From NCBI GenBank assembly GCA_947576095.1, contig CANPPW010000009.1:1-49167 (forward strand): a stretch of 49,167 nucleotides of DNA. The letters are read 5' to 3'. The DNA is from an uncultured Mycoplasmatota bacterium. Lineage in GTDB: Bacteria > Bacillota_I > Bacilli_A > RF39 > UBA660. A model generated the notes under the pieces. It was not told the DNA's origin and did not search any database. It saw only the letters and a list, made by a program, of their open reading frames with translations. This document shows, piece after piece, positions 37,105 through 46,475 of this stretch. How positions within the stretch are numbered: position 1 is the stretch's first letter; each line of letters starts with the position of its first letter. A program made the translations under genes and the position numbers.

Positions 37105-37872
37105 ATGGAAAAAATCAAACTTTTAATGATTGATGATAATATAAGCTTAGTAGAAATGGTAAAAGAATATTTTCATAATCATGAACAAATAGATGTTGTA
37201 TTAGAAGCCTATGATGGTGAAGTGGGGATTGAGATGATGGAATCTCAAAAACAAAATTATGATGTAGTACTACTGGATTTGATTATGCCTAAAAGGGATG
37301 GCATGTATGTATTAGAAGAAATGAAAAAAAGAGGGATTGATAAAAAGGTTATTGTTTTAACAAGTTACAATGCTGGAGATGTGATTCGTAAGGTAGCAGA
37401 GCAAGGCGTCCAATATTTTATGTTAAAACCATTTGAACTTTCTGATTTAGAAAAGAGAATTTTAGAAACAAATCAAAAAATATCAGAAAACAAAAGTGTT
37501 GATTTATATAAAAATAATTTAAATATGTCTATTACTAAAATTTTACATGAGTTAGGAATTCCATCTCATATAAAGGGATATCAATATATTAGAGAAGGTA
37601 TTGGTATTATCTTTGAAAGACCAGAAACGATTGGTGGTATTACTAAGGAACTGTATCCAGAATTAGCTGGTAAATTTAATACAACCGTTTCAAGAGTCGA
37701 AAGGGCTATTAGACATGCTATTGAAGTTTCCTGGAATCGAGGAGACTGGGATCTTATGGAAGAAATCTTTGGGCATAGTGTAGATATAGATAAGGCTAAG
37801 CCAACAAATTCAGAATTTATTGTCACAATTGCAGATAAACTTAGATTAGAGTTTCATAAGGTTGGTAGTTAA
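37105..37872 (+). CDS. spo0A: Master sporulation response regulator Spo0A
   Basis: 255 residues. The receiver domain (about 1-120) has the acidic pair DD near residue 10, the phosphorylated Asp58 in VVLLDLIMP, the Thr in VLTSYN and the Lys in FMLKPF. The C-terminal DNA-binding domain (about 145-255) has [15 protein letters not shown] and the recognition helix region [21 protein letters not shown], unique to Spo0A. Phosphorylated Spo0A binds TGTCGAA boxes to start sporulation. AAGGAG precedes the ATG at 37105. It stands alone here; the usual upstream neighbour spoIVB is absent. Confidence 0.98.
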
Positions 37873-39917: not shown

Positions 39918-39944
39918 TTAGCACTCATATATTGACAATGCTAA
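39918..39944 (+). promoter_or_regulatory. CIRCE operator (HrcA-binding)
   Basis: TTAGCACTC-N9-CAATGCTAA: the left arm is perfect and the right arm matches 7 of 9 bases of GAGTGCTAA. It stands before hrcA, as expected for an autoregulated class I heat-shock operon. Confidence 0.85.
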
Positions 39945-39960
39945 CATATAATAGTATACT
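39932..39960 (+). promoter_or_regulatory. hrcA operon promoter
   Basis: TTGACA (39932-39937), 17-base spacer, TATACT (39955-39960). The -35 overlaps the CIRCE spacer and right arm, so HrcA binding would block RNA polymerase directly. Confidence 0.75.
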
Positions 39961-40017: not shown

Positions 40018-41022
40018 ATGTTAAGTAGTAGGCGAACAGAACTTTTAAAACTGATTGTAGAAGATTATATTAAAACAGCACGGCCTATTGGTTCTAAATC
40101 ACTTTGTACAGCACTCTCTTGTTCTAGTGCAACTATTCGTAATGAAATGAGTGAGTTAGAGGAAATGGGATTGCTTGAAAAAACACATACCTCATCAGGA
40201 AGGGTTCCTTCTGAAAAAGGGTATAGATACTATGTAGATCATATTATGAAACCGAAAGAACTTACAGGAGAAGATGTTTTAAAACTTCAAACAATATTTC
40301 GCAACAATTCGCTTATGCTTTCTGATACTATTATAAAGAGTATGGAGATTGTATCTGAGCTTACTAATTATACATCTATTGTTCTTGGAAAGTCATCTAA
40401 AAATAATAGAATTAGTAAAGTAGAAGTTGTCCCTCTTGACAAAAATAACTTTATTGCTATTGTTATTACAGATAAGGGATATGTCAAACATAAAAAAATG
40501 TTTATTAAAGAAAAAATTGATATTGTAGAAATTAAACAAGTAGTTGATCTCATTAACAAACATATTATAGGAACTCCTATAGATGAAGTCAGTTCTAAAT
40601 TGGAATATGAGGTAAAGCCGATTATTGGAGAAGAGATTAAACAAAAAGAGGTTTTATACAATGCTTTTTATAATGTATTTACAGATATTAAGAATTCTTC
40701 CAATGTAAAAGTAAATCGTACTAGTAATATGTTAAAAGGACCTGAATTCAATGATGCTGATAAAATTAGAAAGATTCTTGAAAAATTTGAAAATAAAGAT
40801 ATGATTCATAGAATTGAAGAGGAAGAAGATGATGAAGAAGGATCTGTTCGAATTTACATTGGTAGTGAAAGTGAATTTGATGATGACATGACTGTGATTA
40901 AAACAAAATACTCTATCGATGGGGAGGAAGGAACGCTTGCTTTAGTGGGGCCTAAACGTATGCAGTACGATAAGGTAACTGCGTTACTTCATTATATAAA
41001 AGAAAATATTGAAAGGAAGTAA
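40018..41022 (+). CDS. hrcA: Heat-inducible transcription repressor HrcA
   Basis: 334 residues. An N-terminal winged helix (about 1-75) has SRRTELLKLIVEDYI, ARPIGSKSL and LEKTHTSSGRVPSEKGYRYYVD, characteristic of HrcA. A GAF-like middle and a dimerisation domain follow. It binds CIRCE to repress the chaperone operon; GroEL helps it fold in the species studied. ATG at 40018 follows AAGAAGGTGA. First gene of hrcA-grpE-dnaK-pepF-dnaJ. An acidic insert (EEEEDDEEGS near residue 265) is somewhat unusual. Confidence 0.97.
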   Translation: MLSSRRTELLKLIVEDYIKTARPIGSKSLCTALSCSSATIRNEMSELEEMGLLEKTHTSSGRVPSEKGYRYYVDHIMKPKELTGEDVLKLQTIFRNNSLMLSDTIIKSMEIVSELTNYTSIVLGKSSKNNRISKVEVVPLDKNNFIAIVITDKGYVKHKKMFIKEKIDIVEIKQVVDLINKHIIGTPIDEVSSKLEYEVKPIIGEEIKQKEVLYNAFYNVFTDIKNSSNVKVNRTSNMLKGPEFNDADKIRKILEKFENKDMIHRIEEEEDDEEGSVRIYIGSESEFDDDMTVIKTKYSIDGEEGTLALVGPKRMQYDKVTALLHYIKENIERK

Positions 41023-41026
41023 TAAA

Positions 41027-41644
41027 GTGGAAAAACAAAATCATGATAACAAACAATCGTGCGAGGAAGAAGTTTGCACATGTGAGCCATGTAAGTGTGA
41101 AGAGTCTTGTACATGTAAAAAGACAGAAGTAGAAGAAAAGTCAAAGGAAAAAAAGAAAAAAGAAGAGAAGGATTCAAAAAATAAATATAAAAAAGAAAAT
41201 GAAGATTTAAAATTAAAAATAAAAGAATTAGAAAATAAGGTATTAAGTGAAAAAGCGGAACTGATTAATTATCGAAAAAGAAAAGATGATGAAGTCAGTT
41301 ATATGTTAAAATATGCAAGTGAAGATATGATTAAATCAATTCTTCCGATTGTGGATAATTTTGAAAGGGCTATTAAACTAGATGATGATAATCTAGAAGA
41401 TGAACTTTCTAAATTTTTAGAGGGATTTAAAATGATTTATTGCCATTTGGTTAAAGTTTTAGAAGAAAATGGTGTAAAGGCAATTGATGGGGTTAATAAG
41501 GCTTTTGATCCTACTTATCATGAAGCTGTATTAACAGAAGTAAGAGAAAAAGTAGAACCTTCAATTGTTTTAGAAATTTTACAAAAAGGATATCTTTATA
41601 AAGATAAAGTTATAAGACCTGCTATGGTCAAAGTAAGTGCATAA
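41027..41644 (+). CDS. grpE: Nucleotide exchange factor GrpE with cysteine-rich N-terminus
   Basis: 205 residues from a GTG at 41027, eight bases after AAAGGAAG. The coiled coil (about 55-105) and the C-terminal beta domain (NGVKAIDGVNKAFDPTYHEA, KGYLYKDKVIRPAMVKV) are normal. It releases ADP from DnaK. The first 32 residues are odd: seven cysteines at 12, 17, 19, 22, 24, 28 and 30 in a C-x4-C-x-C-x2-C-x-C-x3-C-x-C pattern, then a Lys/Glu-rich linker. Such spacing suits Zn or Cu binding or redox sensing; the tail of most GrpE proteins is acidic and without Cys. It lies 4 bases after hrcA. Confidence 0.96.
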   Translation: MEKQNHDNKQSCEEEVCTCEPCKCEESCTCKKTEVEEKSKEKKKKEEKDSKNKYKKENEDLKLKIKELENKVLSEKAELINYRKRKDDEVSYMLKYASEDMIKSILPIVDNFERAIKLDDDNLEDELSKFLEGFKMIYCHLVKVLEENGVKAIDGVNKAFDPTYHEAVLTEVREKVEPSIVLEILQKGYLYKDKVIRPAMVKVSA

Positions 41645-41663: not shown

Positions 41664-43502
41664 ATGGGAAAAATAATAGGTATAGATTTAGGAACAACAA
41701 ATAGTTGTGTAGCTGTATATGAAGGAGATGCTGCAAAAGTTATCGCAAATCCAGAGGGAAGTAGAACAACTCCTTCTGCTGTTATGAAAAAGAAAACAGG
41801 AGAAATTATCGTTGGTGAAAAGGCAAAGAGAGCTTCTGTTACAGATAAGGTAATTCTTTCTGTCAAAAGATTTATGGGAACAGATACTAAGGTAGAACTT
41901 GGTGATAAAAAATGTACACCAGAAGAAATTTCAGCTATGATTTTAACAAATTTAAAAGAAACTGCAGAAGCTTATTTAGGGGAAAAAGTAACGGAGGCTG
42001 TTATTACAGTTCCAGCATACTTTAATGATGCTCAAAGACAAGCTACTAAAAATGCTGGAAAAATTGCTGGATTAGATGTAAAGAGAATTATTAATGAACC
42101 TACTGCAGCAGCTTTGGCTTATGGACTTGATAAACAAGATAAAACAGAACAAATTCTTGTATTTGATTTAGGTGGAGGAACATTTGATGTATCTATTCTT
42201 GAAATTGGTGATGGTGTTTTTGAAGTAAAATCAACAAGTGGAAATAACCATTTAGGTGGGGATGACTTTGATGAACGTATTATGGATTATTTAGTATCTG
42301 AATTCAAAAAAGAAAATGGAATTGATTTATCTAAAGATAAAATGGCAATGCAAAGAGTAAAAGATGCAGCTGAAAAGGCGAAAAAAGATCTTAGTGGTAT
42401 GACAAGTACTGAAATCTCACTTCCATTTATTTCACAAGGAGAAGATGGACCTCTTCATTTAAGTATGAATTTAACAAGAGCTAAATTTGAAGAACTTGTA
42501 GATGATTTAGTTGAATCTACACTAGAACCAGTTCGTAAAGCTTTGAAAGATGCTGATTTAACAAAAAATGATATTGATAAAGTATTACTTGTCGGAGGTT
42601 CTACACGTATTCCTAAAGTACAGGAAATCATTCAAAAAGAACTTTCAAAAGAACCTTCTAAGGGTGTAAACCCAGATGAGGTTGTTGCTATGGGTGCTGC
42701 CATTCAAGGTGGTGTGCTTAAAGGTGATGTAAACGATATTGTCCTTCTAGATGTAACACCACTTTCATTAGGTATTGAAACATTAGGTGGTGTATGTACT
42801 GTTTTAATTCCAAGAAATACAACTATTCCTACAAGTAAATCACAAGTATTCTCTACAGCAGCAGATAATCAACCTGCCGTTGATATTCACGTATTACAAG
42901 GTGAAAGATATATGGCAGCTGATAATAAAACACTTGGAAATTTTCAGTTAACAGGAATTCCTGCTGCACCAAGAGGTGTTCCACAAATTGAGGTGACTTT
43001 TGATATAGATGCGAATGGTATTGTAAATGTAAAAGCTAAAGATATGGGAACCAATAAAGAACAATCTATTACTATTACTGCTTCAACCAATTTATCAGAT
43101 GAAGAAATTGATAAAATGGTAAAAGAGGCAGAAGCAAATAAAGCAGCTGATGAAAAGCGTAAAGAAGAAGTAGATGTAAAAAATGATGCAGAACAACTTA
43201 TATTTGCTACTGAAAAATCTATTAAAGATTTAGGTGATAAGATTGATGCAAAAGATAAAGAAAAGGCAGAAGAAGAAATGAAAGCTTTAAAAGAAGCTCT
43301 TGAAAAAAATGATTTAGAGGAAATTAAAACGAAAAAAGAAAAATTACAGGAAACAGCTATGGCATTTGCAACAAAAGTATATGAAGAAGCAGCTAAGAAT
43401 GCTGATGCAAATAAGGAAGAATCATCTTCCTCATCCAATAAAAAGGATAAAAAGAAAAAAGACAAAGATGATGAAGAAGTAGTAGATGCACAATTTGAAT
43501 AA
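41664..43502 (+). CDS. dnaK: Chaperone DnaK (Hsp70)
   Basis: 612 residues. The ATPase domain starts with [16 protein letters not shown] and has [14 protein letters not shown] and [13 protein letters not shown]. The substrate-binding domain has the linker [17 protein letters not shown], and the C-terminal tail is charged and ends EEVVDAQFE. It binds unfolded proteins in cycles driven by DnaJ and GrpE. AGGAGAG precedes the ATG at 41664. It lies 19 bases after grpE. A perfect hairpin without a T run follows (43507-43528). Confidence 0.99.
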
Positions 43503-43549: not shown

Positions 43550-45364
43550 ATGGAAAAATTAAAAAAACGTAGTGAAGTTGCTGAAAAAGATCAATGGGAT
43601 TTATCAAATTTAATGACATCTGATTTATTTGAAGAGAATATTCAAAAAGTTCAAGAATTAGTAGAAGAAGCTACTCATTATCGTGGAAAAATTACAGAAA
43701 ATGCTGATACTTTTTATAAATATTTAAAAATCGATGAAAAAATAGACCGTCTACTATCTAATATATATGTATATGCACATTTGTATTGTGATGTAGATAC
43801 TACCAATGTAGAGGGACAAAAACTCAAAATGAGGGCGGAGAGATTAGAAGAGACAATTCTAGAAAAACTTTCTTTTGCTAATCCTGAGATATTGAGTACA
43901 GATTATGAAACAATAAAATCTTTTATAGCAGAAAAAGAAGAGTTAAAAAAATATCAATTTTATTTAGAAAGATTTTTCCTTTTCAAGGATCATACATTAA
44001 CAAAGGAAGAAGAGGAGATTGTTACTAAAGCAAGTAATGCTTTTGGAACTCCTTATGAAGTTTTTTATAATTTAGATAATGCAGATATTCATATTGGGAA
44101 TATTTCTGTAAATGGAGAAGAAGTAGAAGTTACAAATAGTAATTATATCAAACTCATGATGAATAGGAATAGAAAGGTTCGGAAAGACGCTTTTGAAAAA
44201 ATGTATGCCTTTTGGAAAGATCATATTCATGTTGTTGCAGCTAGTTATAAAGGGAAAATCAAAGAAGACTTTTTCTATAGCAAAGTAAAAAAATATAAAA
44301 GTCCATTGGAAGCACATTTATATAGTGATCAAATTGATACAGATGTATATAAAAATGTAATTGATGTAACACACAATCATTTAGATAAGTTACATCATTA
44401 TATGAAAATTAGAAAAAAAATGTTAGGGATACAGGATTTGCACATGTATGATATTTATGTTCCCCTTGTTAAGGAGGAAGATGAGGATATCGCTTTTGAG
44501 GTGGGAAAAAATATATTATTTGAAGCTTTACAACCACTTGGAGAAGAGTATTTAAAGGATTTAAAACAAGCATTTGACAAACGTTGGATTGATATTTACC
44601 CTAATAAAGGAAAAAAATCAGGGGCTTATCAGTGGAGTACTTATGATTCATCTCCATATGTATTACTCAATTACAATAATAATATGGATTCTGTGTCTAC
44701 TATGGCACATGAGTTAGGCCATGCTATGCATTCATATTATTCTAAAAAAAATCAGGATTTTCTATATCATGATTATCCAATTTTTCTGGCAGAAATTGCA
44801 TCTACAGTAAATGAAGTGATATTAAATGATTATCTAATTCGTCATGCAAAAGATAAAAAGGAAAAGATTTTATATTTAACAGAATTTTTAGATAAAGTAA
44901 AAGGCACCATTTATAGACAGGTGCAGTTTGCTGAATTTGAAATGATTATGCATGATAAAGAAGAGAAGGGCGTTCCTTTAACAGCAGAGGAATTTTGCCA
45001 AACGTATTATCAATTAAATCGAAAATATTATGGTGATGTTATGGTCAGTGATGATGCCATTCAATATGAATGGGCTAGAATTCCACATTTTTATACACCA
45101 TTTTATGTATACCAATATGCAACAGGACTTACAAGTGCTTTAGCACTTGCTAGTGATATATTAAATCATGTAGATGGTGCGAGGGAAAGATATTTGAAGT
45201 TTTTATCAAGTGGTTGCAAGGATTATCCTTTAAACATCCTTAAAGAAGCTGGTGTAGATATGGGGGAAACAGAACCACTTGAAAAAGCATTTGCTATGTT
45301 TTCAGATAAACTAAAAGAATTAGAAGAATTGGGAGATTTATCAAAGATTTACATAAGGAAGTAG
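43550..45364 (+). CDS. pepF: Oligoendopeptidase F (M3 family)
   Basis: 604 residues, the family length. The zinc site HELGH (His387, Glu388, His391) is in [14 protein letters not shown], with the third ligand Glu in [10 protein letters not shown] downstream. The C-terminal [17 protein letters not shown] is typical of PepF/M3B. It cleaves peptides of about 6-20 residues in the cytoplasm. AGGAGAT precedes the ATG at 43550. It lies between dnaK and dnaJ, 7 bases before dnaJ, so it is read with the heat-shock operon. That is not the usual place and may couple peptide turnover to stress. Confidence 0.96.
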
Positions 45365-45371
45365 GTGTAGT

Positions 45372-46475
45372 ATGAATAAGAAAGATTATTATGAAGTCCT
45401 TGGTGTTAGTAAAGATGCATCTAGTGCAGATATTAAAAGTGCCTTTAGACGTTTAGCCAAAAAATATCATCCTGATGTTTCTAAAGAACCTGATGCTGCA
45501 GAAAAGTTTAAAGAATGTCAAGAAGCCTATGCAGTTCTTTCTGATGAACAGAAGCGTCGTCAATATGATCAATATGGTCATGCTGCTTTTGAAGGTGGAG
45601 CATCTGGTGCTGGAGGTTTTGACTTTAGTGGTTTTGATTTTTCAGATATTTTTAGTGATTTATTTGGAGGTGGTTTTGGATTTGGTGGAGGATCATCCCG
45701 TGGAGGAGATAGACCAACGCAGGGAAGAGATACCCTTATGCATGTAAATTTAACCTTTGAAGAGGCTGTGTTTGGAACCACTAAAGAAATGAATATCGAT
45801 ACTACAGAGACATGTGAAGATTGTGATGGTAAAGGGGGCCATGGCGAGACAAATTGTAGTAAGTGCCATGGTCTTGGAACGATTGTAACAGAACAAAGAA
45901 CTATGTTTGGAGTTTTTCAATCTAGAACAGCCTGTGATAAATGTCATGGAAAAGGTAAAAGTTATGATAAAGTTTGTAATACTTGCCATGGGAAAGGTAT
46001 CATAAAAGTGAATAAAAATATTAAGGTTCGCATTCCAGCCGGTGTAGATGATGGTAATAGACTTAGGGTTCCTGGTAAGGGAGAAGCTGGTCATAATGGT
46101 GGACCTAATGGGGACCTTTATCTAGAATTTTCTGTAAAATCCCATCCTTTATTTCAGAGAGATGAGGGAGATATTTTTATTACCCTTCCTCTTACAATCC
46201 CGGAAGCTGTTCTTGGTTGTAAGAAAGAAATTCCGACTTTGTATGGAAATGTAAAAATGGTGGTGCCAGCGGGCAGTAGTACAGGTGATAAACATCGAAT
46301 TAAAGGTAAAGGTGTGGAAAATCCTAATACAGGAAGAAAAGGCGATATGTATGTGATACTAAAAGTATTAATTCCTAAAAAATTATCAAAAGAGCAGAAA
46401 AAACTATTTGATGCTTTATCAGAAACGAATTTAGAAGATGCACAGGAAATTAAGAATTTTCACAAATATATCTAA
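45372..46475 (+). CDS. dnaJ: Chaperone DnaJ (Hsp40)
   Basis: 367 residues. J domain (1-70) with the HPD motif in KKYHPDVSK. Gly/Phe-rich linker ([16 protein letters not shown]). Zinc domain with four CxxCxGxG repeats ([32 protein letters not shown]), then the substrate-binding C-terminal domains. It stimulates DnaK ATPase and hands over clients. ATG at 45372 follows AGTAGGTGTAGT. Last gene of the operon, ended by the hairpin at 46474. Confidence 0.99.

Follow-up and report, generated by a model that had tools for sequence, protein, structure and literature searches.

On balance, its sequence favors reading the N-terminal tail of the GrpE encoded in the window, by which we mean the whole 49,167-nucleotide stretch of DNA analyzed here, as a metallothionein-like, metal-holding peptide for which GrpE is mainly a chassis. 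The tail holds a dense cysteine cluster ahead of an otherwise ordinary GrpE. Tails rich in metal ligands recur on the GrpE proteins of related genomes, and cassettes of a similar kind are found on other proteins of the same family of genomes or as small proteins of their own. Family, genus and class are used here as groups of the genome database.

The grpE gene and its cysteine-rich tail

The features of the gene and its protein are as follows.

41012 to 41019, forward strand: Shine-Dalgarno-like AAAGGAAG, 7 nt 5' of the grpE GTG
41027 to 41644, forward strand: grpE, 205 aa with a GTG start (translation, Pfam GrpE match, PDB fold search)
41060 to 41116, forward strand: metallothionein-like Cys cluster of GrpE, residues 12-30, 7 Cys (translation; model without metal)
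41117 to 41182, forward strand: Lys/Glu-rich linker from the Cys cluster to the coiled coil of GrpE (sequence)
41147 to 41638, forward strand: GrpE domain (Pfam match; model with a long helix from residue 36)

An initial annotation, made from the letters of the DNA, had claimed seven cysteines in residues 12-30, and the translation of 41027-41644 bears this out: Cys 12, 17, 19, 22, 24, 28 and 30, spaced C-x4-C-x-C-x2-C-x-C-x3-C-x-C. An eighth cysteine, residue 139, lies in the core. With seven cysteines in 19 residues, the tail is a short Cys-dense peptide with CxC and CxxC spacing. The Pfam GrpE model matches residues 41-204 (E 4.9e-46, 156.9 bits against a cut-off of 25.8), while residues 1-58 alone matched nothing in Pfam or NCBIfam, even with E values up to 1 admitted. 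A PDB fold search with the protein returned 13 matches at E ≤0.001, all of them GrpE or GrpEL1 entries. In an AlphaFold2 model built from 31 sequences and without metal, residues 1-38 have pLDDT below 50 and a long helix begins at residue 36. The model and the PDB matches thus place the Cys cluster in a predicted disordered tail, the remainder being an ordinary GrpE. The domain, the fold and the hrcA-grpE-dnaK-dnaJ context, the last recognized by reading, all identify the protein as GrpE.

The cluster stands or falls with the start codon, so the start was checked. The hrcA stop is at 41020-41022 and the grpE GTG at 41027, preceded by the Shine-Dalgarno-like site. The first start of the open reading frame 5' of this GTG is a TTG at 41009, and in the 3' direction the frame offers no further ATG, GTG or TTG before residue 93, a position already within the GrpE fold. 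A start further downstream that would remove the tail was therefore ruled out, and the Cys cluster is kept with every plausible start. Since the usable starts are only GTG 41027 and TTG 41009, any translation of grpE includes the tail.

The cluster also stands out from its surroundings. The background in the window is 89 cysteines in 10,425 residues (22 ORFs of at least 250 aa), which puts the chance of seven or more Cys in 19 residues at P 1.5e-10 per position and 1.6e-6 across all positions. When the window's six frames are divided from stop to stop, 130 ORFs reach 60 aa or more, and among them GrpE has the top Cys count per 20 residues (7; the next has 5). The window's own genome (G000; 1.16 Mb, 38 contigs, 92% complete) holds 10 matches to the CxCx3CxC DNA pattern, and only that of GrpE is read in the frame of a long ORF; the remaining nine lie in frames of 6-51 codons that overlap longer frames of 115-1008 codons. 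A low-complexity DNA repeat was ruled out as the source of the cluster, as no tandem repeat lies beneath it and the repeat rows found begin at 41141.

Seven cysteines in CxC, CxxC and CxxxC spacing within a charged, disordered stretch would bind a soft metal as thiolate clusters. We infer that Zn(II) or Cu(I) would be the most likely metal.

The operon around grpE

The genes around grpE read as a heat-shock operon.

39918 to 39944, forward strand: CIRCE-like operator (HrcA site), 2 mismatches, upstream of hrcA; none in 100 shuffles
40018 to 41022, forward strand: hrcA, heat-shock repressor, first operon gene (sequence reading and operon position)
41664 to 43502, forward strand: dnaK (sequence reading)
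43550 to 45364, forward strand: M3-type oligoendopeptidase gene between dnaK and dnaJ (HELGH in the translation)
45372 to 46475, forward strand: dnaJ with the usual four CxxCxGxG zinc-site repeats (sequence reading)

The gene order is hrcA-grpE-dnaK-(M3 peptidase)-dnaJ behind the CIRCE-like site, which overlaps promoter-like hexamers at 39932-39960 and was scored against the CIRCE consensus. Because grpE sits in this apparent HrcA/CIRCE operon, stress would raise the metal buffer together with the chaperone. The plasmid collection searched showed no match to the operon. Elsewhere in the window, 37105-37872 resembles, by reading, the sporulation regulator Spo0A, in a genome of 1.16 Mb.

GrpE tails in relatives

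The family set comprised 134 loci, of which 130 had a start and 127 remained after merging three identical sequences. The outside-family set comprised 82 GrpEs from 21 other families of the class, out of 89 fetched; 13 of the 102 class genomes outside the family with a GrpE match were left out. For the relatives, a simple Shine-Dalgarno score decided the start codon. Twelve loci without a start by that rule were dropped (4/134 in the family, 7/89 in other families and 1/80 of the loci from a GTDB scan). Some of these are truncated at the edge of a contig; in L072 and L086 the tail is simply short and lacks Cys, so the rule loses some bare tails.

At least three tail cysteines are present in 50 of the 127 family GrpEs and in 5 of the 82 from other class families (Fisher p 2e-8), and a CxC in 49/127 and 2/82, respectively (Fisher p 1e-10); these p values are a guide only, since related sequences are counted as independent. 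Six or more Cys plus His occur in 42/127 family tails. Over the 127 proteins, cysteine makes up 394 of 3984 tail residues (9.9%) and 128 of 20,450 residues elsewhere (0.6%), a 16-fold difference. A further 79 of 80 loci from the GTDB scan include 52 tails with at least three Cys and 57 with at least six Cys plus His, an unfair sample because the loci were picked by similarity to the A1 query alignment, which is rich in Cys tails.

The general claim that GrpE tails are Cys-poor elsewhere held for 77/82 tails of the other class families, which have fewer than three Cys; it did not hold for a few with short Cys clusters of another type. The five Cys-rich tails outside the family are other designs, such as the repeated CCSDES-type double-Cys units of L286, which belongs to another family of the class.

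Within the family, Cys richness recurs, and spacing is not kept. The exact pattern, the conservation of which had been proposed as a check, is lost even within the genus: among its six genomes, four have 4-8 tail cysteines and two have one. What recurs is richness in metal ligands, with spacing and length free. Some relatives have His-rich tails without any Cys (L030, L179, L184, L239), and in L201 and L219 His alternates with CKC and CNC units. Since 77/127 family GrpEs have fewer than three tail Cys, and a single one is present in two of the six genus members, the Cys tail is dispensable. Five of the 117 family genomes surveyed gave no GrpE match (G018, G080, G089, G099 and G117, 64-94% complete).

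A different explanation for the many adjacent thiols is that they form a thiol store or redox sink, working through disulfide or persulfide and not through metal, perhaps in place of Hsp33-type redox chaperoning. A search for Hsp33 (PF01430) came up empty in all 10 family genomes covered, among them that of the window, and gave matches in 8 of 14 control genomes. Against the idea, small genomes may often lack Hsp33. The Cys-free His-rich tails at the same position also fit metal and not redox. We consider a redox sink improbable and keep to metal holding as the preferred reading.

Retention of cysteine and turnover of tails

Close pairs of GrpEs were compared residue by residue. Cysteine was kept in 196/248 cells and all other tail residues in 936/1454 across 20 non-overlapping pairs whose cores are 85-99% identical; the p value of this test is too small because every aligned cell enters the count twice, once from each side. 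The alignments favor identity, and the gap is smaller against charged residues, Gly and Asn alone (644/955 kept in the same pairs); His was kept in 166/217. At 78-85% core identity (19 pairs), Cys was kept in 118/189 cells and other residues in 502/1145. In the tails of L055 and L189, nine aligned cysteines are kept and the spacers are altered. Both tails had at least three Cys in only 17/20 and 11/19 of these pairs, so gain and loss are also seen. On a tree of 126 GrpE cores, the label of three or more Cys changes at least 25 times, compared with 39.5 ± 2.7 in 1000 shuffles. By these counts a Cys-rich tail is heritable, yet often gained or lost. TGT and TGC codons are mixed in 31/37 family tails with at least five Cys.

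Could such tails be the product of neutral drift in a disordered, low-complexity stretch with no function of its own? Turnover is fast, with 25 changes or more on the tree, and tail length and spacing vary freely. Against this, close pairs preserve cysteines better than other tail residues, Cys is 16 times as frequent in the tail as in the rest of the protein, the labels cluster on the tree beyond the shuffles, and similar cassettes, many alike beyond their cysteines, sit on other proteins. Drift is thus the least credible account. The metallothionein-like reading agrees with the recurrence of such tails in the family and with the retention of their cysteines above other tail residues; the part of it that did not survive is exact spacing.

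Cassettes on proteins other than GrpE

Cassettes of the CxCx3CxC type, often GCQEGKECTC, were found at the C-terminus of HisRS, ferredoxin and DeoC, in or before DUF1292 proteins, inside NrdD, and as stand-alone proteins of 45-61 aa. Among 117 family genomes, CxCx3CxC DNA patterns and fetched loci gave in-frame non-GrpE cassettes in 22 genomes: HisRS in 6, ferredoxin in 6, stand-alone in 5, DUF1292 insert in 3, NrdD in 1 and DeoC in 1. A second draw of 290 genomes, 105 of them with a DNA match, added at least 13 for HisRS, 5 for ferredoxin, 2 stand-alone, 1 for DUF1292 and 1 for DeoC. In this draw 30 loci (21 new) and 26 chosen regions were inspected, among the matches listed. The totals over the genomes inspected are at least 19 for HisRS, 11 for ferredoxin, 7 for stand-alone proteins, 4 for DUF1292, 2 for DeoC and 1 for NrdD; they are lower bounds and give no rates because the second draw was inspected in part and its regions were chosen.

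HisRS is the commonest non-GrpE carrier among the matches listed, with a C-terminal Cys/His cassette (CHCGDDCHC, for example) in L391, L431, L444 and 16 further loci. One of the genomes without a GrpE match, G018, bears a cassette on HisRS. The NrdD of L390 (G061), an anaerobic ribonucleotide reductase, has its Cys cassette before a fused C-terminal glutaredoxin-like domain. In G463, two different single-cluster ferredoxins (L441, L442) both have Cys cassettes. Pfam was run on 14 of the 38 carrier-domain proteins, and NCBIfam also, and named HisRS, ferredoxin (Fer4_13), NrdD plus glutaredoxin, DeoC and DUF1292, the match of L373 (DUF1292) being under the cut-off; the remaining 24 were named by sequence reading. 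The stand-alone proteins gave no match in six scanned by Pfam and five by NCBIfam (L389 by NCBIfam only). Antisense or out-of-frame pattern matches and cysteines in long surface-type proteins (L384, L398, L427) were left out as carriers. A profile search with tail alignment A2 matched in only 12/117 genomes and was less sensitive than the DNA patterns; the NrdD carrier was first found in this way.

Several genomes have more than one carrier (two each in G023, G053, G060 and G170, three in G414). A rule of one carrier per genome, or mutual exclusion, was rejected (odds ratio 0.31 and p 0.10 in the 107 genomes whose tail could be read), as there are clear exceptions.

These carriers bear on what the tail does for GrpE. 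The initial annotation had proposed a tail through which DnaK cycling would respond to metal or oxidative stress. Stated as a mechanism, metal or disulfides would fold the tail and so alter its competition with substrate at the substrate-binding domain of DnaK. The disordered tails of Escherichia coli GrpE are reported to bind the DnaK substrate site via 17-IIM-19 and to aid substrate release (PMC12915176). The Cys cluster at residues 12-30 of the window GrpE lies at about the same place. The two tails are alike in position, disorder and charge, and differ in that the window tail has a Cys cluster and no hydrophobic IIM. Thiol chemistry has also been proposed for another exchange factor of the GrpE type, GRPEL2, which is reported to have a redox cysteine (PMC12987570). 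In that 2025 review, however, this is one residue, Cys87, immediately upstream of the contact with the Hsp70 linker, with no tail cluster such as that of the window GrpE, and according to the review insertion of the GrpE tail has yet to be seen directly in a structure. The 77/127 family GrpEs with fewer than three tail Cys also speak against a switch. The proposal is weakened by similar cassettes on HisRS, ferredoxin, DeoC, NrdD and DUF1292, none of them known to act on DnaK, and on free-standing proteins. Given that the cassette turns up on carriers with no relation to DnaK, we regard control of this chaperone by metal or redox state as a rather unlikely possibility. The preferred reading, a metal-holding peptide, would make GrpE one chassis among HisRS, ferredoxin, DeoC, NrdD and DUF1292, with the cassette also able to stand free and His-rich tails able to substitute for it.

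Similarity between cassettes

To compare cassettes beyond their cysteines, Cys positions were fixed and the other residues shuffled. Over 178 pairs the median z was 2.3, and in 42% of pairs 0-1 of 200 shuffles were as good, for 21 hand-picked cassettes of which many have the GCQEG motif (175 pairs between different proteins and 3 ferredoxin-ferredoxin). The best pair, the GrpE tail of G115 and a stand-alone protein of G070, reached z 9.6. In G023, the genome's own stand-alone protein and its GrpE tail are identical at 27/36 residues, ungapped, and their DNA is also alike. A motif GC-x-[DE]-G-x-EC[TS]C is common to GrpE, HisRS and stand-alone proteins, and GCQNGEPCTC and GCQDGEPCTC occur on ferredoxin. 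The strict form C-G-C-x-[DE]-G-x-E-C-[TS]-C is present in 2/31 family genomes and 0/216 other genomes of the class (p 0.015).

The window tail itself is set apart. Similarity of the GCQEGKECTC type beyond the Cys frame is seen in the GrpE tails of G023 and G115, but not in that of the window, which showed no similarity beyond the Cys frame to four stand-alone proteins (z 0.5, -1.2, 1.2, -0.1). Descent of the window tail from a stand-alone cassette is therefore unsupported and copying is not established for it; convergence or decay would fit equally well.

Convergence could also be proposed more widely, with each carrier evolving its own Cys cluster for metal holding without any copying. It is a question of origin and is compatible with the reading of function preferred above. 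The window tail is consistent with it, and so are the cross-carrier pairs (over half of those tested) that miss the level of 0-1/200 shuffles, the His-rich versions, and the CC-type clusters of L286. It fits less well with the recurrence of the GC-x-[DE]-G-x-EC[TS]C motif across GrpE, HisRS and stand-alone proteins and in variants on ferredoxin, with z values up to 9.6 between different carriers, with the restriction of the strict motif to the family among the class genomes compared, and with G023, which nears near-identical DNA between the tails of two carriers. We consider convergence throughout possible but doubtful.

Tentatively, and with some reserve, we suggest instead that a portable Cys (or Cys/His) cassette is the cytosolic metal buffer of this family. 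It would be copied from gene to gene onto abundant, tolerant housekeeping proteins (the N-terminus of GrpE, the C-termini of HisRS, ferredoxin and DeoC, DUF1292 proteins and the NrdD linker) and sometimes freed as a small protein, a 'wandering metallothionein' in place of a fixed one. If this is true, a metal buffer can be a mobile feature of proteins and not a gene. Cys-rich, His-rich and bare tails coexist in one family, so the role of the GrpE tail can be tested with natural variants.

Comparison with known systems

Pfam and NCBIfam returned no known metallothionein family over the cut-off for the window tail or the stand-alone proteins, and the cassettes scanned with Pfam, NCBIfam and PHROGs gave no match over a cut-off. 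The relative L034 gave one sub-threshold Metallothio match (E 0.4). No solved structure was found for the Cys tail of L016. In the open-licence literature searched, we found no account of a metallothionein-like cassette on GrpE, HisRS or ferredoxin.

Bacterial metallothioneins such as SmtA and MymT are likewise short Cys-dense peptides, and metallothioneins are described as folding upon metal binding (PMC7558416). Unlike SmtA and MymT, the cassettes scanned here matched no family model over a cut-off, and the cassettes are often fused to housekeeping proteins.

The closest functional parallel is HspA, the GroES of Helicobacter pylori, whose His/Cys-rich C-terminal extension is reported to bind nickel and has been proposed to serve as a nickel store and in detoxification (PMC3856676). 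Both HspA and the window GrpE are co-chaperones with an added His/Cys tail; the likeness is in how they would work, and the proteins are not homologous. HspA is a GroES with a C-terminal extension for nickel in one lineage, whereas the tail here is N-terminal on GrpE, is dominated by Cys, and has counterparts on five other carriers. As a precedent, HspA shows by analogy that a His/Cys tail on a heat-shock co-chaperone can work. Metal-binding chaperone tails are thus already known from HspA; for a metallothionein-like cassette recurring on several unrelated housekeeping proteins of one bacterial family, the open-licence literature searched showed no counterpart.
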